DNA from: Cocleimonas flava
GTDB lineage: Bacteria > Pseudomonadota > Gammaproteobacteria > Thiotrichales > Thiotrichaceae
Direction of reading: 5' to 3'
DNA length: 64,000 nt
Assembly (NCBI RefSeq): GCF_004339015.1
Contig: NZ_SMFQ01000005.1
Span: forward strand, 310,001-374,000
Part shown: piece after piece, positions 42,406 to 55,742 of the stretch
Numbering within the stretch: the stretch's first letter is position 1
How the letters are laid out: every line of letters begins with the position of its first letter
Made by a program: the position numbers and the translations under genes
Notes under the pieces: model-generated
The model's database searches: none
Told to the model about the DNA's origin: nothing
Seen by the model: the letters and a program-made list of their open reading frames with translations, nothing else

Positions 42406-44211
42406 TTACCCATTATTGTCACTATCTTCACCTTGAGTATCTCGTTGCAGATTCCACATTTCAGAATAACGGCCTTGTTGCTCTAGCAACACCAGATGTG
42501 AACCACGTTCGATAATTTTCCCTGCTTCCATAACCAGTATCATATCAGCATCTACAATAGTGGATAATCGATGGGCGATAATCAGCGTAGAAGTCTTTGA
42601 AGAAATTTTACCCAAGGTTTTCTGTATAGCCTGTTCTGTCGCCGAATCCAGAGACGAGGTTGCCTCATCAAAGATCAAAATAGGCGGTTTCTTAAGAATG
42701 GTTCTGGCAATCGCCACACGTTGTTTTTCTCCACCAGAAAGCTTAAGTCCTCTCTCCCCTACAACACTATCCCAGCCATCTGGTAATCCTTCTATAAAGT
42801 CGTAGATGTGCGCCATCTTTGCCGCATTCTCGACTTCTTCTCTGCTTGCATCTAGATTTCCATACTGGATATTGTAAAAAATACTTTCATTAAACAGCAC
42901 TGTATCCTGAGGCACGATACCAATGGTTTCGCGCAAACTGTCCTGTGTACATTCTTTTATATCCTGTCCATCTATCAGGATTCGACCTTGACTCACATCG
43001 TAAAAACGAAATAACAGTCTTACTAAAGTTGACTTACCTCCACCGCTAAAACCAACTACTGCAACGGTCTTACCCGCTGGAATAGTGAAATTCACACCAT
43101 GAAGAATTTCTCTTTTTTTATCATAAGCAAAAGACACATCTTCAAATTTGACTTCGCCTTTGCTTACATTGATATCAGTCGCGTTTTCGACATCTTGTAT
43201 TTCGGGCTTTTGCTTTAGTAACTTAAACACCAAATCCATATCGGCTAAGGTATATTTGATTTGTCGATAAATAATGCCCAAGGCATTTAAAGGAATAAAC
43301 AACTGCAACATAAAGGCATTGACCATTACCAGGTCACCAATGCTCATTGTACCTTCCACAACACCATTGGCAGCCAGGAACATAATAATCGTCACACCGA
43401 CAGCGATAATCGCGCCCTGACCAAAATTAAGCATCGACATGGTCGATTGGCTTTTTACCGCAACGTTTTCCCATTTCTCAAGGATTTCATCGTAACGGTT
43501 CTGCTCCAACCGTTCGTTATTAAAGTATTTAACCGTTTCATAATTAATAAGGCTATCAAAAGCATGCGTATTGGCTTGTGAATCCAGTCGATTCATATCA
43601 TGTCGATAATGCATTCGCCATTCTGTCACCATTAAGGTAAAAGCCACATAGAAAAGAACGGTACCAAAGGTTACCAAAGCAAATATGACTGCGTAGTTGG
43701 ATAAAAGAATAAAAGCGACAAGTGAAAACTCAACAAAGATGGGAATTGTACTGAACACTAAAAAGTTCATAAGCGTAGAAACAGAACGAGTTCCTCGCTC
43801 TAGATCTCTACTGATAGCACCTGTTTTACGCTGTAGATGAAAACGTAAGGATAATTTATGCAGGTGTTGCATGACGCGTTTCGATAATTCGCGCATCGCA
43901 TGATAGCGAACTCGGGCAAACACCGTATCACGAAGCTCATTGAACAATGAGGTCAGCAACCTGAAAACACCGTAAGCAATAAGTAAGGCAACCGGAAGTA
44001 CTAATACCTGAGTTTCTTTTCCGTCAAATTTATCAATAATATCTTTCAGTACCAGTGGCACAGAGACGGTAGAAACCTTAGAGATCACCAGGCATAGTAA
44101 CGCCAAAAGCGCTCTGCCCTTATAGGCACTGAGATAAGGTAAAAGATGACGTAAATTTTGAAGGTCACGGCGGTTGCCATGAATTTCGTTACCGGTAGGG
44201 GTGAAATGCAA
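42406..44211 (-). CDS. Atm1/HMT1-type ABC exporter (permease-ATPase fusion)
   Basis: A 601-residue half-transporter with six spans (about 35-330) and a C-terminal ATPase: Walker A VGFSGGGKSTLVRLLFRF (near 390), Q-loop IGIVPQDTVLFNESI, signature LKLSGGEKQRVAIARTILKK (near 492), Walker B ILIFDEATSSLD, and the H-loop IIAHRLSTI. The membrane motif NYETVKYFNNERLE is typical of the Atm1 subfamily, which exports glutathione-linked or metal compounds. The gene is immediately upstream of lpxC on the same strand. MsbA-type lipid export is the alternative suggested by that neighbour, but the motif favours Atm1. Confidence 0.9.
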   Translation of the reverse strand: MHFTPTGNEIHGNRRDLQNLRHLLPYLSAYKGRALLALLCLVISKVSTVSVPLVLKDIIDKFDGKETQVLVLPVALLIAYGVFRLLTSLFNELRDTVFARVRYHAMRELSKRVMQHLHKLSLRFHLQRKTGAISRDLERGTRSVSTLMNFLVFSTIPIFVEFSLVAFILLSNYAVIFALVTFGTVLFYVAFTLMVTEWRMHYRHDMNRLDSQANTHAFDSLINYETVKYFNNERLEQNRYDEILEKWENVAVKSQSTMSMLNFGQGAIIAVGVTIIMFLAANGVVEGTMSIGDLVMVNAFMLQLFIPLNALGIIYRQIKYTLADMDLVFKLLKQKPEIQDVENATDINVSKGEVKFEDVSFAYDKKREILHGVNFTIPAGKTVAVVGFSGGGKSTLVRLLFRFYDVSQGRILIDGQDIKECTQDSLRETIGIVPQDTVLFNESIFYNIQYGNLDASREEVENAAKMAHIYDFIEGLPDGWDSVVGERGLKLSGGEKQRVAIARTILKKPPILIFDEATSSLDSATEQAIQKTLGKISSKTSTLIIAHRLSTIVDADMILVMEAGKIIERGSHLVLLEQQGRYSEMWNLQRDTQGEDSDNNG

Positions 44212-44324
44212 AATCAGACCAGAAGTTTCAAAAGTAAAATTATGCCTTAAATCACATCAAACTAATATTTCTTTAGAAGATAGTTTGAGTAAACACGAGC
44301 AGCCTTAAACGCCTCAAATAAAAA

Positions 44325-44348
44325 AAGGGGTTCAAAAGAACCCCTTGA
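44325..44348 (-). terminator. Rho-independent terminator after ppk2
   Basis: A stem of AAGGGGTTC / GAACCCCTT with an AAAA loop, followed on the minus strand by seven T. It lies about 75 bases past the ppk2 stop, with a dispersed-repeat copy between the two. Confidence 0.8.
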
Positions 44349-44381
44349 CTTAAAACCGGTAGATTATGCAACAAACCTAAG

Positions 44382-44409
44382 CCACCCCCCTACTTTCAGG
44401 GGGTATTTA
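44382..44409 (+). repeat. C-rich dispersed repeat, copy 8
   Basis: CCACCCCCCTACTTTCAGGG then GGTATTTA, between the ppk2 stop and its hairpin terminator, antisense to ppk2. The CCCCC and GGGGG blocks could pair. Confidence 0.75.
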
Positions 44410-44423
44410 TTATGACAACTGAT

Positions 44424-45386
44424 CTATAGCACTGCATCTTCGGGGTACATTTTATCAACAGAACCAACAATCAATGGATCTGGCGCATAAACTACCGATG
44501 TATCTTTATTATCGTAATCTAAATTATGTAAGAAATGACGAATACACGAGAGACGGGCACGCTTTTTATCGTCTGATTTAACCACTATCCAAGGGGCATC
44601 TGCCGTATCCGTATTAAAGAACATCGATTTCTTGGCTTCGGTATACGCATCCCATTTATCCAGTGACTCAACATCTACAGGGCTTAATTTCCACTGTTTA
44701 ACCGGATCATGTTTGCGCGAATGGAAGCGTCTTAACTGCTCTTGACGAGTTACCGAGAACCAGTACTTAAACATGATGGTGTCCGAATTTACCAACATAC
44801 GCTCAAACATTGGACATTGACGCATAAACTCAAGGTGATCGTGGCGTGAGCAAAAATTCATCACTATCTCAACACCAGCACGGTTGTACCATGATCGGTC
44901 AAATAAAATCATCTCACCTTTGGTTGGCAGATGATTCACATAACGCTGAAAATACCATTCGCCTAACTCACGCTCAGTAGGTTTTTCCAAAGCAACCACT
45001 CGCGCAATACGAGGATTCAAATGCTCAGTAAAACGTTTAATCGTTCCACCTTTACCGGCGGCATCACGACCTTCAAAAATCGTAACAATCTTCTTATTCG
45101 CTTCTTTGAGCCACTTCTGAACCTTTAATAATTCAACTTGCAACAGACGCTTTTCTTTTTCGTAATCTTTGGTTTTCATCTTTTCCGAATACGGATAGTC
45201 GCCAGCAGCACAACTAATTTTCAACAAATCACCGCCTTTGGTAAATGTTTTGGAATTCATTACCTTATCGGAATCAGTCAACCCTACCAAAGCCTGGGTA
45301 GCTTGTTCCTTTGTCATTGGCTTATCTGCTGCTTTTACAGGAGCCTTCTGGCTTGGCTCTTTTACAGGCTTTTTTGCTGTTGTCAT
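44424..45386 (-). CDS. ppk2: Polyphosphate kinase 2
   Basis: Uses polyphosphate to phosphorylate nucleotides, usually GDP or ADP to the triphosphate. 320 residues with Walker A EGRDAAGKGGTIKRF (near residue 105), the lid-type segment and Walker B MILFDRSWYNRAGVE (near 158), and RRFHSRKHDPVKQWKLSP. The length and single domain fit class I PPK2. The N-terminal 40 residues are Lys/Pro/Ala-rich and probably disordered. It is divergent from rluB. Confidence 0.93.
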   Translation of the reverse strand: MTTAKKPVKEPSQKAPVKAADKPMTKEQATQALVGLTDSDKVMNSKTFTKGGDLLKISCAAGDYPYSEKMKTKDYEKEKRLLQVELLKVQKWLKEANKKIVTIFEGRDAAGKGGTIKRFTEHLNPRIARVVALEKPTERELGEWYFQRYVNHLPTKGEMILFDRSWYNRAGVEIVMNFCSRHDHLEFMRQCPMFERMLVNSDTIMFKYWFSVTRQEQLRRFHSRKHDPVKQWKLSPVDVESLDKWDAYTEAKKSMFFNTDTADAPWIVVKSDDKKRARLSCIRHFLHNLDYDNKDTSVVYAPDPLIVGSVDKMYPEDAVL

Positions 45387-45491
45387 ATACTCTCCTTAAT
45401 GCGACTAATGCTATTCTGCTTATTAATTGATTCTAACTGTTGATTCTAAGTGTATACCAGAGAATCCCTATTCTGTATGATCCATATCAAT

Positions 45492-46319
45492 ATGACTGAA
45501 AGAATACAAAAGATACTCTCACGTGCTGGCTACGGCTCACGCAGAGAAATAGAACGCTGGGTAAAAGCCGGTGAAGTAATGGTAAATGGCGTTAAGGCAG
45601 AGGTTGGTCAAGCGATTAGCGAAACCGATAAAGTCGTTTTGCGCGGACAAGTATTAAAGCTTTCCAGTAAGCTCAATGCCAAGCCTCAAGTATTGCTATA
45701 TCACAAGAAAAACGGTGAGATAAGTTCTCGTAAAGATCCAGAAGGCAGACCTACTGTTTTTGATAATTTGCCTCCGTTAAGTAGCGGTCGCTGGATTCAG
45801 GTAGGACGCCTCGACATCAATACCGATGGCTTATTGCTTTTTACCACCGATGGCGAGTTGGCGAATCGTTTAATGCACCCTTCGTATGAAATAGAACGTG
45901 AGTACGCGGCGCGCATTTTGGGCGAAGTGACTGATGAGCATATCGACAATTTACTCAAAGGTGTTGAACTAGAGGACGGCAAAGGCAAATTTAATACCAT
46001 CAAATTTGCCGGTGGCGAAGGCGTTAATAAGTGGTATCACGTGACTCTGAACGAAGGACGAAACCGTGAAGTTCGCCGTTTATGGGAATCTCAAGAACTT
46101 GTCGTTAGCCGACTAAGACGTATTCGTTACGGCAATGTAGAACTCCATAGATCGTTACGCCCGGGAGCTTTCGAAGAGATGGATGTAAAATCCATGCGCA
46201 GCCTTTACGAAAAAGTAAATATGGAACTGGATGAGGAAAATTTCCTCTCTAAAAGCGAATACAAAAGCAGAGCCGATAGAAATAAGGCATTTAAATACGG
46301 CAAAACTAAGAAAAGATAG
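45492..46319 (+). CDS. rluB: 23S rRNA pseudouridine synthase RluB
   Basis: Modifies U2605-type uridine in 23S rRNA. An S4 domain (RIQKILSRAGYGSRREIERW) is followed by the RsuA-family catalytic segment with the active aspartate in VGRLDINTDGLLLFT (near residue 105), and by NEGRNREVRRLWESQ. The ATG at 45492 is chosen because it begins with the conserved MTERIQK. The open frame extends 14 codons upstream to a GTG. 275 residues. It ends 16 bases before the perfect palindrome formed by two dispersed repeats. Confidence 0.93.
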   Translation: MTERIQKILSRAGYGSRREIERWVKAGEVMVNGVKAEVGQAISETDKVVLRGQVLKLSSKLNAKPQVLLYHKKNGEISSRKDPEGRPTVFDNLPPLSSGRWIQVGRLDINTDGLLLFTTDGELANRLMHPSYEIEREYAARILGEVTDEHIDNLLKGVELEDGKGKFNTIKFAGGEGVNKWYHVTLNEGRNREVRRLWESQELVVSRLRRIRYGNVELHRSLRPGAFEEMDVKSMRSLYEKVNMELDEENFLSKSEYKSRADRNKAFKYGKTKKR

Positions 46320-46335
46320 TACTTTATAAGCATTT

Positions 46336-46399
46336 AAGCCACCCCCCCACCTTTGGGGCACTTTTTTAAAAAAGTGCCCCAAAGGTGGGGGGGTGGCTT
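46336..46399. repeat. Perfect 64-bp palindrome made of two C-rich dispersed repeats (copies 9 and 10)
   Basis: Two identical 32-base arms meet with no spacer. Each reads GCCACCCCCCCACCTTTGGG, then GCAC and six T. The centre is TTTTTTAAAAAA. It lies between the convergent rluB and DUF2069 genes, overlapping the last base of the DUF2069 stop codon. It would form a very stable hairpin in either transcript and so act as a bidirectional terminator. Confidence 0.9.
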
Positions 46400-46764
46400 T
46401 ATTTATTGTGTAATAGCTTATCGCGTTTATCCATTACCCAGACATTCAACAAGCTGCCAAAAAATAGGCACAAGCTTAATCCCAGCATCCAGTAGCCGTA
46501 AGCTTTCTCATCGGCAGAATACATAAACCAAATACCAATCAAGATATAAATAAAAGAAACCAGCATTACAATAATGAAGGTATCTCGATTACCTCGCAGT
46601 ACCCCGCGCACAAAAAATAGCAAGGGGGCAACGAAAACAATTATTTCAATCGACCTAGGAAACTCTTGCACCGGCGACAACCAGCCGTTCCAAAGCACAA
46701 TCAGAATCACTAAACCCGTGATTCCGATACCGGCTAAAGCTCTGTAAAAAACGGTGATATCCAT
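46399..46764 (-). CDS. DUF2069 small membrane protein
   Basis: 121 residues with four predicted spans: about 8-26, 40-57, 63-82 and 90-110. The pattern, with FPRSIEIIVFVAPLLFFVRGVLRG, matches the DUF2069 family, which regularly follows wrbA and arsC in gammaproteobacteria, as here. Function is unknown. The stop codon is shared with the edge of the palindromic repeat pair. Confidence 0.85.
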   Translation of the reverse strand: MDITVFYRALAGIGITGLVILIVLWNGWLSPVQEFPRSIEIIVFVAPLLFFVRGVLRGNRDTFIIVMLVSFIYILIGIWFMYSADEKAYGYWMLGLSLCLFFGSLLNVWVMDKRDKLLHNK

Positions 46765-46805
46765 AATACTTATTCTGCTTTAGTCATGATTAAAGGGTTA
46801 AGCAT

Positions 46806-47411
<606 letters not shown>

Positions 47412-47459
47412 TTAATAATAGAGCTAGGTGTATATTTAAAAATTGAGATAAATATACGA

Positions 47460-47813
47460 TTACAAAATATCAATGATATTTTCTATAGGACGGCCAATCG
47501 CCGCCTTTCCATCCTTAATCACAATCGGACGCTCAATCAAAATCGGGTTATTTACCATCGCGTCTATCAATTGCTCTCTCGTTAGTCTTTCATCAGCGAG
47601 ATTATTATCTTTATAAGCCAGTTCGCCTTTACGCATCAACTCGCGAGGCTCAAGACCCAACATATCTAAAATCTCAGATATTGCATCACTATCCGGCGGC
47701 GTATCTAAATACTTAACGACATTTGCTTCAATGCCTTTATCGCTAAGTAGTTCCATTGCCGCACGAGATTTAGAACATCGTGGATTGTGATAAATTGTAG
47801 TTGAGTCTGTCAT
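47460..47813 (-). CDS. arsC: ArsC-family arsenate reductase (glutaredoxin type)
   Basis: 117 residues. The active-site cysteine is in HNPRCSKSRAAMELL (near residue 12), and RPIVIKDGKAAIGRP (near 96) carries the third conserved arginine. The length and motif fit the ArsC/YfgD branch that sits with wrbA and DUF2069 in many gammaproteobacteria and is not part of an ars resistance operon. Arsenate is therefore only one possible substrate. Confidence 0.92.
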   Translation of the reverse strand: MTDSTTIYHNPRCSKSRAAMELLSDKGIEANVVKYLDTPPDSDAISEILDMLGLEPRELMRKGELAYKDNNLADERLTREQLIDAMVNNPILIERPIVIKDGKAAIGRPIENIIDIL

Positions 47814-47976
47814 AGCATCCTTTTTAAAAATTTATTCAATAAGATTTCCGTGACTAGTGTATCCAAGCGAAACCTAAACACAAATTGTTTTTAGTCTGTT
47901 TGCACGCATTCCTTTTCTATATCTCTAAAATCGAAGTTCTTCTCCACAATAGAACATGAGCATACTTAAGAGCAAT

Positions 47977-48004
47977 AAAAAGTGCCTATAAGTAGGGGGG
48001 TGAC
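47977..48004 (-). repeat. C-rich dispersed repeat, copy 11
   Basis: On the minus strand it reads GTCACCCCCCTACTTATAGG, then CACTTTTT. It lies in the 254-base region between the divergent arsC and thioredoxin-like genes, 64 bases upstream of the latter, so it is not at a gene end. Confidence 0.75.
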
Positions 48005-48067
48005 TTTCTCTTTTATAATTAGCTTATTACTTGAATTCAAAAGAAAAATAAGTGAGGATTCTACACT

Positions 48068-48604
48068 ATGAAAAAACCAATAATATTATGGGCTGCACTC
48101 AGTATTCTTCCTTTCTTTTCCGGCCAGTCATTAGAAAAAGTCAAAGACTTCTCTTTTAATGATATCGAAGGTAAAAGTCATAATTTCAGTGATTATCAAG
48201 GCAAATGGGTACTGGTGAATTATTGGGCAACGTATTGCCCCCCTTGTCATGCTGAAATTCCAGACATTGAACGTTTCGCTCAAGATAACAAAGATGATTT
48301 TATCGTTCTAGGCATGGATGCTGGTGGCAGCCAGATTAATGAGATTCTTTCCTTTAAAGAACAACTCAAAATTAGCTACGATTTGATCCCAATGCAGCAA
48401 AGCACCATGCTCTCATTTGGTACCATAATTGGTATTCCAACAAGCTATATCGTTAACCCCAAAGGCGAAATCGTTGATAAGTATGTGGGGATCATCACTT
48501 ATGACGACCTTGATTTTCACATTAATCCGCCGATTTATAAAAGTGCGAGCGCGGACAAAAAGATAATTGAACAAAGTTTTGATTCAAGTACGCCAAATCA
48601 ATAA
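48068..48604 (+). CDS. TlpA/ResA-like exported thioredoxin
   Basis: 178 residues with a signal peptide or anchor (PIILWAALSILPFFSGQS) and a thioredoxin fold. The active site is NYWATYCPPCHAEIPDIE (CPPC, near residue 57) and the cis-proline loop is GIPTSYIVNPKGEIV (near 138). The C-terminal 25 residues are extra. It probably reduces or isomerises periplasmic disulfides. It is a single gene and ends at a strong bidirectional terminator. It occupies the place where rpoS would be expected next to nlpD. Confidence 0.85.
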   Translation: MKKPIILWAALSILPFFSGQSLEKVKDFSFNDIEGKSHNFSDYQGKWVLVNYWATYCPPCHAEIPDIERFAQDNKDDFIVLGMDAGGSQINEILSFKEQLKISYDLIPMQQSTMLSFGTIIGIPTSYIVNPKGEIVDKYVGIITYDDLDFHINPPIYKSASADKKIIEQSFDSSTPNQ

Positions 48605-48628
48605 AACCAAAACAATATGACTAATAAT

Positions 48629-48657
48629 AAAAAAGCCCTCAGAAGAGGGCTTTTTTA
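48629..48657. terminator. Bidirectional terminator between the thioredoxin and NlpD-like genes
   Basis: A stem of AAAAAGCCCTC / GAGGGCTTTTT with an AGAA loop, T-runs on both strands, between convergent genes. Confidence 0.9.
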
Positions 48658-48699
48658 TTATCTATAAACACTTATTAGCGTTTAGCTAAGCTTCCGTTA

Positions 48700-49530
48700 T
48701 TACTTCAAACGGATAGTTTGGCCCGGGCTAATATTGTAAGGAGGTTGTAAATTATTGATGCTGATAATATCTTTCCAGTACACACCTGTTTGACGCATGA
48801 TTTCAAATACCGTGTCACCCTTCTTAACTACGTAGCTGCTTCCACCTGAACTAGATGTACCTGCAGTATTTGCGTAAGTTGCAGTATTCGTTGTTGCTGC
48901 ACTACCACCAGAATACGTTGTTGGCGCGTATGGCTTATACGTTTTTTGCTGGTAGCTTCCTGTGTAAATACTCTTGTTACTAGCCGTTACGTTTGTATTC
49001 GCTGCTGGCGCTGTAGTTTGTCCGCCAGATGCAGAACTGTAATCGTAATACTGTGTATTAGAGTTAGTTCCGTAACCTGCATAGTTAGTGTTTTGCTGTG
49101 GCTGAGCCGCTGGCTGCTGTACTTTGTTACGCGCTGCTGCTTGCTCACGGTTCCACTTGTCGATGTAATACTGCTGGTTATGTGTTGAAGTCTGAGTTCT
49201 TGGCTGAGCAACTGGTGCAGCAGGCTTTGCAGGCTTATAGGTATAAGTTGCTGGCGCCTTAGGCTGTGTTGCCGTTGCACCGCATGGTGCACACGTAGCA
49301 GATGTATTAGCACGTTGCTGACCGCCACCACGTACTTGTCCGCCACCAGCTACCTGATTGGCACGTGTACGTTGTCCGTAACCGCGAGTTTCGCCGGATG
49401 TTGAGTATCCGCCACTGCTTGTAGCTCCTGTGTCATACCCAGCTTGAGATGCACCCCTGTAGCTACTACAACCTGATGCCATTACAGCAACTAGTGAAGC
49501 AACTGCAACTAGTTTGATTTTACTGTCCAT
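48700..49530 (-). CDS. LysM lipoprotein, NlpD-like but without the peptidase domain
   Basis: 276 residues. A lipoprotein signal peptide has the lipobox MASGC (Cys near residue 21). About 200 residues of Gly/Ser/Gln/Tyr/Thr-rich low-complexity sequence follow. One LysM domain (YVVKKGDTVFEIMRQTGVYW to SPGQTIRLK, about 232-276) ends exactly at the C-terminus. LysM binds peptidoglycan. It sits downstream of surE-pcm-yqaA where nlpD belongs. Canonical NlpD has LysM in the middle and a LytM/M23 domain behind it, and here that domain is absent. No frame continuing the peptidase is visible after the stop. Confidence 0.8.
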   Translation of the reverse strand: MDSKIKLVAVASLVAVMASGCSSYRGASQAGYDTGATSSGGYSTSGETRGYGQRTRANQVAGGGQVRGGGQQRANTSATCAPCGATATQPKAPATYTYKPAKPAAPVAQPRTQTSTHNQQYYIDKWNREQAAARNKVQQPAAQPQQNTNYAGYGTNSNTQYYDYSSASGGQTTAPAANTNVTASNKSIYTGSYQQKTYKPYAPTTYSGGSAATTNTATYANTAGTSSSGGSSYVVKKGDTVFEIMRQTGVYWKDIISINNLQPPYNISPGQTIRLK

Positions 49531-49549
49531 AATAAAATACCTTCGATTT

Positions 49550-50134
49550 CTATTTTAATTGATAGATTCCCACAACGATCGCTAACAGCCCTACTGTTAA
49601 CCAGCCCAGCCACTCGATGTATTTAACAATGAGTGGTTCCATGCGAGGTCCTGCTTTGGCAACTAACAACGCGACTAAAAAGAAGCGTGCCCCTCTTCCG
49701 ATTACAGATGCAATCACAAAAGGTAAAAATGCCATCGACAAAAGTCCTGCACTAATTGTGAAAAGTTTATAAGGTATTGGCGAGAAGCCAGCGACAAGAA
49801 TTGCCCAGATGCCCCAACGGTCGAACAAGGATTTAACCTGCTCGAACTTATGCCCATAACCCCAATTTTCTATGAGCGGTCCCAACCACTCATAAGCCCA
49901 TGTACCCAGTAAATAGCCAGCTATTCCACCGAGCACTGATGTAAATGTCGTCCATAATGCTAAACGCCACCATTCCGCAGGTTTTGAAAGCGTCATGGGG
50001 ATCAACATTATATCCGGAGGAGGTAACGGCAGTAACGCCGATTCTAAAAAGCTTACAACCCCCAAATAATTTTTCGCATATTTATGCTGCGAATATTCAA
50101 TTACTTTGTTATATATATTCGAAAACAGGTTCAT
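49550..50134 (-). CDS. YqaA/DedA-family membrane protein
   Basis: 194 residues with four or five membrane segments and the VTT/DedA-type sequences SFLESALLPLPPPDIMLIP (near residue 28) and AGFSPIPYKLFTISAGLL (near 115). The family is thought to flip or transport lipids such as undecaprenyl phosphate in relatives. It lies between pcm and the NlpD-like gene, a common order in gammaproteobacteria. Confidence 0.9.
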   Translation of the reverse strand: MNLFSNIYNKVIEYSQHKYAKNYLGVVSFLESALLPLPPPDIMLIPMTLSKPAEWWRLALWTTFTSVLGGIAGYLLGTWAYEWLGPLIENWGYGHKFEQVKSLFDRWGIWAILVAGFSPIPYKLFTISAGLLSMAFLPFVIASVIGRGARFFLVALLVAKAGPRMEPLIVKYIEWLGWLTVGLLAIVVGIYQLK

Positions 50135-50221
50135 TTTAAAGGATTTTTTTGGTTTTTTGTAATATTTCTTGAAATTAGCCTTAAAAACTGTGCTAACCGC
50201 CCGTTGTTAACCTGTAAACAG

Positions 50222-50854
50222 TTAACCACCTACCAATGGAACAAAGATCACCGACTCATGATTTTCGACGGAATAATTCGTTTCATTGTTACGGGTCACT
50301 ACCTGCAATTTTTGTTCACTATTTTGTGCCCCGACGGGAATTATCATGCGGCCCCCTATTTTCAACTGCTGAATTAATGCAGAAGGAATCTCATCTGGCG
50401 CTGCTGTAACCATAATCGCATCATAAGGCGCCGCTTCTTCCCATCCCCAACTTCCATCACCGAGGTGTGTACGGATATTTCGATAACCTAACTTGTATAG
50501 TAAGTCTCTTGCATTGCGATGAAGTTCAGTCACAACTTCAACTGTGTGTAAATTTTTTACTAAACCACCCAATACAGCGGCTTGATAACCCGAACCTGTC
50601 CCCACTTCTAACACATTCTCTAATGATTCAGATTGCATGATTAATTCTGTCATGCGCGCAACAATAAAAGGCTGTGAAATCGTTTGTCCATGGCCGATGG
50701 GAAATGACGCATCCTCGTATGAACGACTCGCCATCGCCTCATCCACAAATAAATGACGCGGTACAAGACGCATCACGCGCAATACATCAGAATTCACGAT
50801 GCCTTTATCTTGCAAGCGATCTATTAATCGGTCACGAGTACGTTGGGATGTCAT
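50222..50854 (-). CDS. pcm: Protein-L-isoaspartate O-methyltransferase
   Basis: Repairs isoaspartyl residues using SAM. 210 residues from the ATG at 50854, which gives the conserved start MTSQRTRDRLIDRL. The open frame reaches back to 50911, but those codons are made by the dispersed repeat and overlap surE. Motifs are FPIGHGQTISQPFIVARMTE (near 55), EVGTGSGYQAAVLGGLV (near 82) and APYDAIMVTAAPDEIP. It lies 17 bases after the surE stop, the conserved pair. Confidence 0.95.
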   Translation of the reverse strand: MTSQRTRDRLIDRLQDKGIVNSDVLRVMRLVPRHLFVDEAMASRSYEDASFPIGHGQTISQPFIVARMTELIMQSESLENVLEVGTGSGYQAAVLGGLVKNLHTVEVVTELHRNARDLLYKLGYRNIRTHLGDGSWGWEEAAPYDAIMVTAAPDEIPSALIQQLKIGGRMIIPVGAQNSEQKLQVVTRNNETNYSVENHESVIFVPLVGG

Positions 50855-50871
50855 ACCAACGCCCTGGATAT

Positions 50872-51654
50872 CTAGCTCATTGATTTTGTCACCCCCCCAC
50901 TTTGGAGCCATTTTTGCATATCATCTATAGCAGAATAACGTGTTAGATCTATATGTATAGGTGTTACAGAAACATAACCCTGCTGTACCGCGTAAAAATC
51001 TGTTCCATCACCCGCATCTGCTTCAGTACCGACAGGTCCTATCCAGAAAATTTCTCGACCACGCGGGTCTTTTTCTTTGACTACAGGCTCGGCTTTATGG
51101 CGCTTTCCAAGTCTTGTAGCTTTGAATCCTTTGATTTCATTCCACGGCAAGTCGGGAACATTAACATTGAGTATGCTCGCCGCATTATCTGAATCACTTA
51201 ATTTCAGCGCTGGCATATCCTTTAGCAATTGAAGCACCGCTTGTATCGCAGAATCGTAATGCAGTGCTTTGTAATTACCCATCGACACTGCTATGGATGG
51301 TAATCCTAAATTTCTTCCTTCCATTGCGGCTGCTACTGTTCCTGAATAAATAACATCATCTCCCATATTGGGGCCAGAATTTATTCCTGATATCACAATA
51401 TCAGGCTCTTTATCCGGGTATAGGCCCGTTAATGCCAAATGGACACAATCAGTAGGTGTACCGTTGATGCTATAAAAATTTTTGCCGCGCTCTGTAAGGC
51501 GAAGCGGTGATTCTAACGAGAGTGAATTACTTGCACCACTTCGGTCTCTGTCGGGTGCAATTGTCAGCACATCAGCAATTTCTGATAACTTATCACGCAA
51601 CAAATTTATCCCAGGCGCGATAAAGCCGTCATCATTACTTAATAGTATTTCCAT
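50872..51654 (-). CDS. surE: 5'/3'-nucleotidase SurE
   Basis: Survival protein that dephosphorylates nucleoside monophosphates. 260 residues from the ATG at 51654 (MEILLSNDDGF). The DD metal motif is LLSNDDGFIAPG (residues 4-15), with GTPTDCVHLAL and VVSGINxGxN-type VISGINSGPNMGDDVIYSG (near 85). The last nine residues, SGGVTKSMS, are encoded by a copy of the C-rich repeat and the bases after it and look like a late extension. Upstream it is divergent from the Smr gene. truD is not adjacent here. Confidence 0.95.
   Translation of the reverse strand: MEILLSNDDGFIAPGINLLRDKLSEIADVLTIAPDRDRSGASNSLSLESPLRLTERGKNFYSINGTPTDCVHLALTGLYPDKEPDIVISGINSGPNMGDDVIYSGTVAAAMEGRNLGLPSIAVSMGNYKALHYDSAIQAVLQLLKDMPALKLSDSDNAASILNVNVPDLPWNEIKGFKATRLGKRHKAEPVVKEKDPRGREIFWIGPVGTEADAGDGTDFYAVQQGYVSVTPIHIDLTRYSAIDDMQKWLQSGGVTKSMS
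50888..50915 (+). repeat. C-rich dispersed repeat, copy 12, inside the surE 3' end
   Basis: GTCACCCCCCCACTTTGGAG, then CCATTTTT, lies antisense within the last codons of surE. It encodes Gln-Ser-Gly-Gly-Val-Thr there and also supplies a spurious upstream start for pcm. It carries both the core and the T-tract, so it is a full-length copy in coding sequence. Confidence 0.75.
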
Positions 51655-51730
51655 AAAATTTCCATAAAACACTCATAAAATGATAATCTCAACTATTGAT
51701 ATTAACCATTTATAGTCATCACTACTCACC

Positions 51731-52360
51731 GTGTCTAATTTTGATAAGAAAACACTAAAAGACCTTAAAAAGCAGCTAGCTGAAAAGAACCGAGACGAAA
51801 AGGAGGCTACACAAAAGCGCCTTAAACAACAAGTAGAAGATCAATATGATCAAAATTTCTTTTCAGACGCAATGCAAGGCGTAACACCACTTAAAGATGA
51901 CAAAGCTTATCATGAAGTTGAAAGACCAAAAGCAAAAGTCCGCCCAGCGGATGAAGACTTCGAAGAACTTTTTATCCACGACCCTCTTTCAGACGAACTT
52001 GAAGTGGAAGATGTTCAAATGGAAGGCGTTTTAAGCTTCTGTAGAGAAGGCATACAGAATAACGTATTCAAAAAACTGCGCAGTGGAAATTACCGTATTT
52101 CTGATGAACTCGATTTACATGGATCTAGCATTAAACAAGCAAAAATGATCCTGGTTTATTATCTGCAAGAAGCCGTTCAGTTTGAAGGTTGCTGCATACG
52201 AATTGTACACGGCAAAGGTAATCGATCGGGCGATAAAAAACCTGTTTTAAAAACTCAGGTAAATCATTGGCTGAGTGAGCATGAGAGAGTACTCGCATTT
52301 CATTCCTGCAAACCTAAAGATGGTGGGACCGGCGCTGTTTACGTCTTGTTAAAACGATAA
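51731..52360 (+). CDS. Smr-domain protein (SmrA-type)
   Basis: 209 residues from a GTG start. A charged coiled N-terminus is followed by a C-terminal Smr domain: ELDLHGSSIKQAKMIL (near residue 128), IRIVHGKGNRSGDKKPVLK (near 155) and PKDGGTGAVYVLLKR at the end. Smr domains are nucleases linked to MutS2, ribosome rescue or DNA nicking. The stand-alone SmrA/YdaL form is likely here. It is divergent from surE across about 75 bases. Confidence 0.9.
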   Translation: MSNFDKKTLKDLKKQLAEKNRDEKEATQKRLKQQVEDQYDQNFFSDAMQGVTPLKDDKAYHEVERPKAKVRPADEDFEELFIHDPLSDELEVEDVQMEGVLSFCREGIQNNVFKKLRSGNYRISDELDLHGSSIKQAKMILVYYLQEAVQFEGCCIRIVHGKGNRSGDKKPVLKTQVNHWLSEHERVLAFHSCKPKDGGTGAVYVLLKR

Positions 52361-52392
52361 CAGTCAAAACAATCATGCTTAAATAACCTTAA

Positions 52393-52424
52393 GGTCCCCC
52401 CCCCCCTACTTTGGGGCCTTTTTT
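52393..52424 (+). repeat. C-rich dispersed repeat, copy 13 (expanded C-run)
   Basis: GGT, ten C, TACTTTGGGGCC and a T-tract. The C-run is longer than the usual six or seven, suggesting slippage. GGTCCCC and GGGGCC can partly pair, so it may terminate the smr transcript 33 bases past its stop. Confidence 0.75.
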
Positions 52425-52455
52425 TCATAACGAATAATCACCACAAAAAAGCAAT

Positions 52456-52483
52456 AAAAAAAGGACGCCGTAGCGTCCTTTTT
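52456..52483. terminator. Bidirectional terminator between the Smr and DoxX genes
   Basis: A stem of AAAAAGGACGC / GCGTCCTTTTT around CGTA, with A/T-runs on both sides, lies between the convergent smr and doxX genes. Confidence 0.85.
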
Positions 52484-52513
52484 CTATCAAATAATAAAAA
52501 TTATTTCAGATTA

Positions 52514-53173
52514 TCATTTAACTTCATCAGTCGTGTTATCCAAATCAAATGGATCTGCTTTGATGTTGTCATGCGGATGAGCCATATTTTTAGCTTGCTG
52601 TCCTGCAATAACTTTCTTATTCAGTCTGCGATATAAGAACCAGTCAACACTTAAGAAGCGTCCTGCTCCCATGAAGAACAAAGTGAGTAGCATCAAGAAG
52701 TAAACAACTGTCTTGCTGAAATCCGAACTGCTCATATCAGTATAACCATGAGTCATTAGCATTTCTTTCAACGTTGCTATAATGTCTTGACCATTGAGTG
52801 CCATGAGTGCAGTCAATACAATTAAGGCCAATAACGGAATTGATACCCAGCGAACAGCAAAACCAATCAGTAATAAGAATGCACCGATAATTTCCAACCA
52901 ACCAATTGAGCTAGTTAAAACACCTGACAAAGCATCACCAATAAATGGAACTTTAGCCAAACCGGCAGTCGTCGCCTGATGAATAGGGTTATCTGTATTG
53001 AACCAGGTTAACGGGTTATACCAAACAGTATCGTCTGCGGTAAACAAACCCAACTTTCTGCTACCCGATACCCATAGCAGTGGCGCCAAGAATAATCGAA
53101 GTAGTAATGGGGGTAAGAAATCTAAGCCTCGCAGCCATCCAAAGCTGAAAAAACCGAGTAAAAACTTAGTCAT
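52514..53173 (-). CDS. DoxX-family membrane protein
   Basis: 219 residues from the ATG at 53173, which has AAGGAGA at good spacing; a GTG three codons earlier would overlap that site. Four spans are visible, with the DoxX pattern LLRLFLAPLLWVSGSRKLGLF (cut: LLRLFLAPLLWVSGSRK, near 25) and GWLEIIGAFLLLIGFAVRW (near 88). An insert of about 45 residues lies between spans 1 and 2. The C-terminal tail is charged. DoxX proteins are linked to respiratory or redox functions. The specific role is unknown. Confidence 0.85.
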   Translation of the reverse strand: MTKFLLGFFSFGWLRGLDFLPPLLLRLFLAPLLWVSGSRKLGLFTADDTVWYNPLTWFNTDNPIHQATTAGLAKVPFIGDALSGVLTSSIGWLEIIGAFLLLIGFAVRWVSIPLLALIVLTALMALNGQDIIATLKEMLMTHGYTDMSSSDFSKTVVYFLMLLTLFFMGAGRFLSVDWFLYRRLNKKVIAGQQAKNMAHPHDNIKADPFDLDNTTDEVK

Positions 53174-53294
53174 AGAAGACACTCTCCTTATAAGGTAATA
53201 ATGTCTATTTGACTGTTTTCTACTCGGTATTGCAAGCTAAATCTCTGATGTTTTTCAAGCCAACACCTAGGAATTCAAGCAATAACACATTGAT

Positions 53295-53525
53295 TTATTT
53301 CCAGAAAGGCTTGTTAATTTCGCAATCAACATCGGCACGATTTAAACCTATATCTTCCAGCATTCTGTCATCAAGCTTTGCTAGATGTTTGCGTTGTTGA
53401 ATACGCTGATTCCAGATAGTAAGCGTCTTAAATAAATTCTTTGAAGGTTGAATTACAGCTTCTTCACAGCTGGGTAGACACTGCGATAGATGATTATTAT
53501 GATTTGCCTGTGTGTATACAGTCAT
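53295..53525 (-). CDS. DUF1127 small protein
   Basis: 76 residues. The C-terminal half, HLAKLDDRMLEDIGLNRADV followed by NKPFWK, is the DUF1127 domain. Such domains are linked to RNA binding and to phosphate and carbon control in alphaproteobacteria. The N-terminal half has two cysteines and no known domain. AAGGAGA lies 6 bases before the ATG. It lies 122 bases upstream of doxX on the same strand. Confidence 0.85.
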   Translation of the reverse strand: MTVYTQANHNNHLSQCLPSCEEAVIQPSKNLFKTLTIWNQRIQQRKHLAKLDDRMLEDIGLNRADVDCEINKPFWK

Positions 53526-53856
53526 GACATGTCTCCTTATATTTGTAATGCATTTTTAAGCAATCTTGTTTATAAATGGAGACCCTGCAAGCAAGGTCTC
53601 CTTAAGGAAACTCTGATTAACCTAGTTGAATTCTGTAAGAATCTAGGATATTCAGTGCTTCCTTTATGATTTACCCCCTACAGGTAAGACCATGAATGTA
53701 TTTAACGCTTCAGCGAAAAAACTATCCAATCGTTTAATCAAAACCCTGCTATCAGGATTTCAGATTGTGCATTTATCATTAGGTATTTTTAATCATTATT
53801 AGAATTGCTCATCATTAGAATTGTTCATCGCTCAAAATGATGACATCATCTTTCAC
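53526..53856. other. Intergenic region between the DUF1127 and LysR genes
   Basis: 331 bases with divergent promoters expected. It contains a hairpin, GGAGACC / GGTCTCC with a 10-base loop (53578-53601), about 55 bases upstream of the DUF1127 start. The hairpin lacks a T-run, so it is more likely a 5' leader structure than a terminator. A 36-codon frame at 53692-53802 has no support. A partial match to the C-rich repeat (TTACCCCCTACAGG) is too short to count. Confidence 0.5.
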
Positions 53857-54744
53857 ATGGAACTCTATCAACTCAGAACTTTTGTCACCGTTGCAGATAC
53901 TGGCAATCTCACACAGGCAGCCGAACGCCTGTTTACTAGTCAGCCTGCTGTCAGTGCGCATATAAAAGCGCTGGAAGAAGAGCTGGAAGTCAAACTCTTT
54001 GATCGAACTCCGAAAGGTATGCGACTTACAGAGAGCGGGACGTCGCTACGAGATAAAGCACAATTAGTGATTAATGCAGGCAACGAATTAAAGCTGGCAG
54101 CAAAAACACTTCAGGGAGAAATTACGGGGCAAGCCAAGGTCGGATTAAACACGGATGCCGAATATCTGCTTCTTGCAAAATGGCACAACGCGTTGATGTC
54201 TGAATACCCAAATCTTAAAATTCAGCTAACCCAAGGCACATCAATAGATCTGGTTCAAAAGGTGGGCAAAGGACAACTTGATGTCAGCTTTTTTTCGGGA
54301 GATATCCCTTACGACAAAGTCAGTTATGTTGAGCTATGTGATACGCACGCCGTAATAGCCGCCGCACCTAAGTGGAAAGACAAACTAAAACGTGCTGGAC
54401 GAGAAGAGCTGGCTCAGCTGCCGTGGATTTACCCCGAGCCTCTATGCATTTATCACAGATTTCTCAATCTTATTTTTTCTGATACTAAAGTACAGCCTGC
54501 ATGGGCAACGTCTAGTGCGACTGAAGATTCCACAATCGCATTATTACGCTCAGGGATTGGTCTAGCCTTTATTCGCAATGATGAAGCCGATGCTCTATTG
54601 AAAAAAGGTGAAATTGTTGTGTGGCCGGGCGAATCATTCACACTGCCATTGAGAATGGCCTATTTAGAATCTCGTAAAGAAGACCCCGTGATCAAAGCGC
54701 TACTAGAAATCATTGTTAAAAAATTCGAAAAACATAAGAAATAA
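53857..54744 (+). CDS. LysR-family transcriptional regulator
   Basis: 295 residues from the ATG at 53857 (MELYQLRTFVTVADTGNLTQ), which is the standard LysR start; the open frame begins 12 codons earlier at a TTG. The winged-helix motif is LTQAAERLFTSQPAVSAHIK (residues 18-37), followed by the substrate-binding domain. It lies 110 bases upstream of a beta-hydroxyacid dehydrogenase gene on the same strand and may control it. The effector is unknown. Confidence 0.93.
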   Translation: MELYQLRTFVTVADTGNLTQAAERLFTSQPAVSAHIKALEEELEVKLFDRTPKGMRLTESGTSLRDKAQLVINAGNELKLAAKTLQGEITGQAKVGLNTDAEYLLLAKWHNALMSEYPNLKIQLTQGTSIDLVQKVGKGQLDVSFFSGDIPYDKVSYVELCDTHAVIAAAPKWKDKLKRAGREELAQLPWIYPEPLCIYHRFLNLIFSDTKVQPAWATSSATEDSTIALLRSGIGLAFIRNDEADALLKKGEIVVWPGESFTLPLRMAYLESRKEDPVIKALLEIIVKKFEKHKK

Positions 54745-54794
54745 ATGATCTCGTTCATTAATTTCTAAAATCTACTTTTGAACCCACACAAACA

Positions 54795-54806
54795 GTTGAG
54801 TTCAAC
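54795..54806. promoter_or_regulatory. Candidate operator upstream of the dehydrogenase gene
   Basis: GTTGAGTTCAAC, an interrupted palindrome (GTTGA-GT-TCAAC), lies about 48 bases before the dehydrogenase start, directly after the LysR gene. Size and symmetry suit a LysR-type site, but binding is unproven. Confidence 0.3.
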
Positions 54807-54854
54807 TACAATTAAACAAGTTAAATTAGATCATTTCATTTTGAGGAGATAAAT

Positions 54855-55742
54855 ATGTCGAAGCAAAAAGTATCCTTTCTAGGTTTAGGAGCTATGGGTT
54901 ACCCAATGGCGGGATTTCTCGTTAAAAAGGGTTATGAGGTGACTGTTTTTAATCGTACTACAGCGAAAGCCGAAAAATGGGCTGATGAATACTCGTCTAA
55001 TGAAAACCCAGCAAAATTTGCTACCACACCAGAAGAAGCTGTTGCAGATGCCGATATCGTTTTCACTTGCCTGGGCAACGATAATGACGTCAGAGAAGTT
55101 TTCACCAAAATATTCGCTAGCGCTAAAACCGGAGCACTGTTAGTTGACCATACAACAACTTCCCCAAGCCTCGCTCAAGAATTATATGCTGAAGCCCAAA
55201 AACACAATATGGAATTCCTTGATGCACCCGTATCTGGCGGCCAGGCAGGTGCAGAACAAGGGATTCTTACAATTATGGTTGGTGGCGATCAAACAAGCTT
55301 TGATAACGCTTTAGATGCAATGAATAGTTATGCCAAAGCGACCACTCTGATCGGTTCTTCAGGTAAAGGGCAAGCCCTAAAAATGGTAAATCAGCTCTGC
55401 ATAACCGGTATTTTACAAGGATTAAGTGAAGCCTGGAGCATGGCTAAAGCGGTTGATATCGATGCTAAAATGATGGTTGATGTACTACAACATGGCGCAG
55501 CCGGTTCCTGGCAAATGGTGAATAGAACAGAGACAGCTATGAACAACGAATTCGATTTTGGTTTTGCTATTGACTGGATGCGTAAAGACTTAGCCATTTG
55601 CTTTGATGAAGCCGAAAAACTCGGCGTCGAATTACCCCTTGCAAAACAGGTGGATGAAAAATACGCAGAACTACAGGAACGAGGCTATTCTCGATCCGAC
55701 ACTTCTGTGCTTGTTAAGCAATTTGATAACGAAAAAAGATGA
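54855..55742 (+). CDS. Beta-hydroxyacid dehydrogenase (3-hydroxyisobutyrate / tartronate semialdehyde reductase family)
   Basis: A 295-residue NAD(P)-dependent oxidoreductase. The Rossmann motif is FLGLGAMGYPMAGFLVK (residues 9-25), the substrate motif DAPVSGGQAGAEQGILTIM (near 122), and the catalytic lysine is in GQALKMVNQLC (near 175). GAGGAG lies 7 bases before the ATG. Members act on 3-hydroxyisobutyrate, tartronate semialdehyde or succinate semialdehyde, and the substrate here is not readable. The next gene starts 9 bases after its stop. Confidence 0.92.
   Translation: MSKQKVSFLGLGAMGYPMAGFLVKKGYEVTVFNRTTAKAEKWADEYSSNENPAKFATTPEEAVADADIVFTCLGNDNDVREVFTKIFASAKTGALLVDHTTTSPSLAQELYAEAQKHNMEFLDAPVSGGQAGAEQGILTIMVGGDQTSFDNALDAMNSYAKATTLIGSSGKGQALKMVNQLCITGILQGLSEAWSMAKAVDIDAKMMVDVLQHGAAGSWQMVNRTETAMNNEFDFGFAIDWMRKDLAICFDEAEKLGVELPLAKQVDEKYAELQERGYSRSDTSVLVKQFDNEKR

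Follow-up and report, generated by a model that had tools for sequence, protein, structure and literature searches.

Across the sampled Thiotrichaceae, the lipoprotein gene that follows surE, pcm and a VTT-domain gene ends at its LysM codons. This truncation is common to the family and not a quirk of the window genome, a breadth that the first-pass annotation of this DNA did not foresee. Sequence comparisons make it likely that NlpD was reduced to a wall-binding lipoprotein after a break of the nlpD–rpoS block, with amidase activation left to FtsEX–EnvC. NlpD is a main daughter-cell separation switch in well-studied Gammaproteobacteria, and nlpD–rpoS is a textbook gene pair. A family with a split pair that retains only the wall-binding half of NlpD represents a natural domain-deletion experiment. 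It raises two questions: does a LysM lipoprotein take part in division when it activates no amidase, and is EnvC alone enough as an activator? As the family includes well-known filament formers among the sulfur bacteria, these questions are testable against morphology. A literature search covering titles and abstract openings found no truncated NlpD or moved rpoS in Thiotrichaceae, which is no proof of absence from print.

The window, a 64,000-nucleotide stretch of the Cocleimonas flava genome, carries the locus on its reverse strand. Profile matches identified surE (50872–51672), encoding a 5'/3'-nucleotidase, and pcm (50222–50911), encoding an L-isoaspartyl methyltransferase, and Pfam assigned the next gene (49550–50134) to a YqaA-like VTT-domain membrane protein, which we take to be yqaA following the first-pass annotation and general knowledge. 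Together with a divergent smr, these genes lie upstream of the LysM lipoprotein gene (48700–49530, ORF list and Pfam), for which the previously reported start at 48605 took in the adjoining terminator. Its 276-aa product, read from an ATG start, has LysM as its sole Pfam domain, located at residues 233–275 (48706–48834, reverse strand; 45.9 bits). An ASG-C sequence with Cys21 presumably represents a lipobox, as judged by eye, and by the same criterion a lipobox-like Cys was present near the called N terminus in 32 listed family copies, at residue 20–76 depending on the called start. The linker contains a segment (49150–49293, reverse strand) with a CxxC motif (CAPC, residues 80–83) and one QQYYIDKWN motif beginning at residue 119.

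Starting less than 40 bases from the stop codon of the LysM gene, a bidirectional intrinsic terminator (48610–48668) was detected by hairpin folding. It features U-tracts in both orientations, folding energies of −22.9 and −25.1 kcal/mol and z values of about −7.8 in each orientation, with none of 200 shuffles equally good. Beyond it, a convergent gene on the forward strand (48068–48604) encodes a thioredoxin-like protein with a CPPC motif according to profile matches; of the 31 family pcm-site loci, 20 from six of the eight genera have such a gene next to the LysM gene. No rpoS was found among the ORFs at 43000–55000, and scans of the window for Rfam families (gathering thresholds) and tRNAs gave no matches. 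The locus thus agrees with the first-pass annotation, which had described a lipoprotein ending at LysM after surE-pcm-yqaA, a bidirectional terminator followed by a convergent thioredoxin-like gene and the lack of rpoS at its usual site.

To relate the window gene to its counterparts, we compared 31 pcm-site loci from the family. A LysM-terminal gene was present in 29, including one (L118) that shows the LysM side only; of the other two, L121 reaches the contig end before LysM and L150 (genome G016) lacks the gene. In none of the 31 did the frame with LysM also encode an M23 domain. Position and orientation of the LysM gene after pcm were conserved across all eight family genera. In a separate survey of named genomes, 80 pcm loci were collected, of which 66 with at least 2.5 kb of downstream sequence were counted and 14 with less than 2.5 kb were set aside. 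LysM and M23 shared one frame in 62 of the 66, with rpoS within ~3.5 kb in 36 of these 62. Three had neither domain, and the single LysM-only locus (L190, JALSLM010000153.1) belongs to a Thiotrichaceae metagenome-assembled genome (MAG) that matches a sampled family genome (G009). The set-aside loci comprised seven with LysM plus M23, two with LysM only and one with M23 only at cut contig ends, and four with neither. In the genomes of the three counted loci with neither domain (L199, L206 and L239), NlpD-model matches of 116–159 bits were located elsewhere, two of them spanning LysM and LytM and the third C-terminal only.

The NCBIfam NlpD model gave a similar division. All 36 family genomes scored at most 89.2 bits, compared to 99–212 bits for 16 of 21 other relatives from the class; of the remaining five, three scored 77–83 bits and two had no match. 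The best family matches corresponded to the C-terminal part of the model, and among the matches listed, which include all those of 48 bits or more, none from the family covered both LysM (model positions ~105–151) and LytM. Comparison of the locus in relatives, as proposed in the first-pass annotation, revealed a family-wide LysM-only state and placed the break between the LysM codons and rpoS.

Because the stop codon directly follows LysM, we considered whether a frameshift or bad join had shortened nlpD, leaving a pseudogene or assembly artefact. However, the window gene and 29 pcm-site copies from other assemblies all terminate with LysM or within a few residues of it, and this family-wide state refutes the idea. 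The nearby terminator also argues against it, as does the lack of an M23 remnant in any adjoining frame. Furthermore, Nei–Gojobori counts against one congener (G007) yielded a dN of 0.027 and a dS of 0.52 (dN/dS ~0.05), with a dN of 0 for the last 46 codons, which encode LysM. The gene is under purifying selection, a pseudogene was rejected on the basis of these counts, and we assign the artefact explanation a negligible probability. Separately, dS against the same congener (L112) was patchy across 46806–51672, with values of 0.11 for yqaA, 0.08 for arsC, 0.71 for pcm and 0.73 for surE, which suggests recombination in patches.

The first-pass annotation had proposed that rpoS was either moved or lost. 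The window genome contains a clear rpoS gene on contig C3 (G000:C3:383426-384262), while the window lies on C4; relocation thus holds and loss was rejected. The gene scored 405 bits against a cut-off of 378.7 and, with a second curated RpoS model, 423.9 against 394. According to labels assigned mostly by eye, its neighbors in one direction are nadB and an rpoE-rse cluster; in the other direction come a divergent M23 gene and then response-regulator and sensor genes. RpoS matches of at least 373 bits, higher than the ~290 bits that RpoD reached in this search, were obtained for 35 of the 36 family genomes, two of them (G017 and G028) just under the cut-off; the sole exception (G009) is 89% complete. 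In the three family genomes with pcm and rpoS on one contig (G022, G030 and G035), the two genes are more than 1 Mb apart.

The genes downstream of rpoS carried a trace of its former location. Homoserine dehydrogenase (hom) and/or threonine synthase (thrC) genes were detected just downstream of rpoS in all 13 loci of genera g2, g4, g5 and g7 and in 14 of 35 loci over all genera, several of which are cut by contig ends; g1, g3 and g8 have other genes there. Labels for DUF498, alanine transaminase, homoserine dehydrogenase and threonine synthase were checked on representatives. Among the named loci, nlpD is followed by alaC, hom and/or thrC in eight; rpoS lies in between in seven of them (L193, L196, L197, L203, L208, L214 and L245) and is absent from L235; two loci with an alaC-like frame further downstream (L191 and L198) were left out of the eight. 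In this gene-order listing, the greedy ORF caller gave no pcm call for 17 of the 80 loci, while the LysM and M23 counts are independent of the caller. Since the relocated rpoS retains ancestral downstream genes, the old block broke between the LysM codons of nlpD and rpoS, its right half leaving with rpoS and its left half staying with pcm.

On this basis, the window gene would be the surviving 5' half of nlpD. An ancestral block surE-pcm-yqaA-nlpD-rpoS-DUF498-alaC-hom-thrC, a composite of outgroup loci since no single locus spans the whole, was probably broken between the LysM-coding part and rpoS in a common ancestor of the family members sampled; the piece from rpoS onward would have moved elsewhere and the LytM-coding part would have been lost. 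Synteny documents the two end states, from which we infer the order and mechanism of events.

In a 46-row RpoS tree, from which six rows of other class members and the long-branched L197 and L268 had been dropped, the 28 family rows formed one side of a branch with support of 100/93. An earlier 54-row tree included a misread row (outcls_L088, branch 10) and needed two changes for the family, but holding the family together gave a higher likelihood and was not rejected (p-AU 0.70). RpoS itself looks inherited within the family. In a genome from another family of the class (G044; L142 and L184), rpoS is located on a different contig from pcm and NlpD is full length, an independent instance of a split nlpD–rpoS pair. 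Because this genome keeps full NlpD despite the distant rpoS, separation alone is not the cause of truncation, and the two are different events.

A genome-wide search for LytM/M23 domains, another check suggested in the first-pass annotation, identified seven M23 and 11 LysM places in the window genome, none in a common frame. The LytM half of NlpD is thus gone, as the annotation had stated for the locus. The M23 protein beside the relocated rpoS resembles the missing half in its M23 domain and its adjacency to rpoS. It differs in its divergent transcription, a Peptidase_M23_N domain and the presence of catalytic motifs (HSGMD and HLHW), and its best match was the Pgp3 model, below the cut-off of that model. 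We therefore rejected this gene as a transplanted NlpD half. Being Pgp3-like and divergent, it also does not amount to the full NlpD–rpoS pair elsewhere that the annotation had considered. A six-frame profile search led us to reject the idea that a piece of M23 survives behind the stop codon of the LysM gene or ahead of the relocated rpoS: at the pcm-site loci it returned only separate M23 ORFs (L126, L127 and L137) and a chance-level 5.8-bit match in L137, and at the rpoS loci the M23 matches were the Pgp3-like neighbors.

To assess whether the LysM gene descends from nlpD, we scored LysM domains with NlpD-derived profiles. The window LysM was the top match among the LysM places of its genome, with 46.5 bits versus 33.5 for the next with a profile from eight training sequences and 53.4 versus 42.2 bits with one from 69. 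Conversely, a family-LysM profile gave 34.1–42.9 bits for outside NlpDs (best 14 listed) but at most 30.7 for other LysMs of the window genome. Other family LysM copies scored 29–49 bits with the eight-sequence profile, the weakest falling below an unrelated LysM protein of the window genome (L012, 33.5 bits). The LysM tree was poorly resolved, with 5 of 101 inner branches starred; as a domain of ~44 residues does not suffice to resolve a tree, NlpD ancestry of the window gene is probable but unproven. The curated NCBIfam NlpD model matched the window protein with 32.2 bits against a cut-off of 311, at positions 44–149 of 365 only. That cut-off was passed by none of the 57 genomes, outgroup NlpDs included, so the score of this model alone is weak evidence.

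A different origin would be outright deletion of nlpD, its place behind yqaA being taken by a LysM-terminal lipoprotein from elsewhere in the genome that is unrelated to NlpD. Such proteins exist: the window genome encodes two further secreted proteins with a signal peptide and C-terminal LysM (L012 and L013), which score 42 and 40 bits with the 69-sequence profile and thereby leave room for paralogue replacement, and genus g3 as well as G016, where the gene is absent from the pcm site, have similar LysM copies elsewhere. The conserved position and orientation in eight of eight genera, the rank of the window LysM as the best NlpD-profile match of its genome and the preference of the family profile for outside NlpDs over any other own LysM all speak against replacement, and we consider it improbable.

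If the gene is a shortened nlpD, its product probably sits in the outer membrane as a lipoprotein and uses LysM to bind peptidoglycan, perhaps at the septum. According to PMC5533458, in Escherichia coli all NlpD constructs with LysM localize to midcell whether lipidated or not, septal localization requires LysM and is achieved by LysM alone, NlpD does not function without its degenerate LytM domain, and an rpoS promoter lies inside nlpD. By analogy with this domain dissection, the LysM-only protein should bind the septal wall and not activate an amidase; with LytM absent, septal amidase activation by the window protein is predicted to be absent.

Components of a second activation route were detected. 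The window genome encodes one Amidase_3 protein in an open frame of 414 aa and an FtsX above cut-off. Across the 36 family genomes, 34 contain at least one Amidase_3 and 26 exactly one, while FtsX was above cut-off in 33. As a candidate EnvC, the protein L005 (G000:C4:388872) matched the EnvC model (PRK11637) with 219.6 bits at positions 6–382 of 385. It resembles EnvC in this near-full-length match and in a degenerate LytM domain, in which the usual M23 catalytic patterns HxGxD and LHx were not found, and would be the remaining activator; its score lies below the curated NCBIfam cut-off of 270, its coiled coil was judged from sequence only and its gene is separate from that of the LysM lipoprotein. 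LytM matches in open frames of 345–471 aa, likewise candidate EnvCs, were present in 34 of the 36 family genomes. As the EnvC candidate, FtsX and one long Amidase_3 enzyme are all encoded, an FtsEX–EnvC–amidase route is available, and amidase activation is probably left to FtsEX–EnvC acting on this Amidase_3. The expectation in the first-pass annotation that amidase control must differ thus applies to the NlpD branch only.

Loss of the activator half could instead represent an adaptation to filamentous life, in which daughters stay attached because the septum is cut less strongly. PMC10532065 describes Thiothrix, Thiolinea and Thiofilum as filamentous and lists them with Leucothrix, Cocleimonas and two candidate genera as members of Thiotrichaceae, the only family of the order Thiotrichales in GTDB (2023); E. 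coli nlpD envC double mutants form chains (PMC5533458). Against this stand the EnvC–FtsX–amidase set in the window genome and a Thiomargarita MAG (L239) in which NlpD is absent at the pcm site but a full-length match persists elsewhere (G057:C208:11390-12121, 136.5 bits, positions 98–364, 274-aa frame). We regard the adaptive scenario as unlikely, and the Thiomargarita match also weakens the notion that filamentous sulfur bacteria have generally lost NlpD. For the multicellular Neisseriaceae, the main text of PMC9395523 does not mention nlpD.

The low-complexity linker of the retained half carries genus-specific modules, either CxxC with QQWYID-type repeats or His-rich repeats. CxxC was found in all 11 g1 copies, all three g8 copies (one cut) and two of three g7 copies, and one to five QQWYID-type motifs per linker occur in copies from these genera. 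The motif HxHxGxxHxHxLPxxGxxHxH appears once or twice per pcm-site copy in g2, g4, g5 and g6 (11 copies in all), while three short g3 copies contain neither motif kind. No Pfam family for the His motif was found in the linkers scanned. A model built from the linkers detected the motif in 27 of 36 family genomes and in none of the 21 other relatives from the class; in a class-wide draw of 143 genomes, two had it, and these belong to the family. LysM-only lipoprotein copies with His repeats are also located away from pcm (G020:C38, G025:C87, G031:C96, G013:C49 (L188) and G016:C95). Six other ORFs of the window genome (L312, L315 and L317–L320; G000:C3:176322-176639, C2:655025-655333, C4:76448-76528, C3:132534-132611, C3:131018-131098 and C4:243817-243894) contain the motif, most with a likely signal peptide; in four of them, it lies within ~50 residues of the N terminus behind that peptide. 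Metal binding by the motif is a guess. A more speculative and rather doubtful extension is that the truncated NlpD was repurposed as a wall-bound outer-membrane lipoprotein with metal- or redox-active linker modules, the His module being a portable exported tag on many unrelated secreted proteins.

Among known systems, the window gene is closest to NlpD, a murein hydrolase activator with LysM and a degenerate LytM domain. It shares the surE-pcm-yqaA locus, following pcm with yqaA in between, as well as the lipoprotein signal, a low-complexity linker and an NlpD-like LysM. It differs in lacking the degenerate C-terminal LytM/M23 domain and a downstream rpoS, in scoring below the curated model cut-off and in the family-specific motifs of its linker. 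ActS, also an amidase activator, was the best NCBIfam match of the window LysM stretch (40.8 bits), but this match is far under the cut-off of 375 and restricted to residues 221–276. Overall, the window gene exemplifies a real NlpD truncation that is common to the family and historically coupled to a broken nlpD–rpoS linkage; it represents a novel form of an established protein and not a new system.
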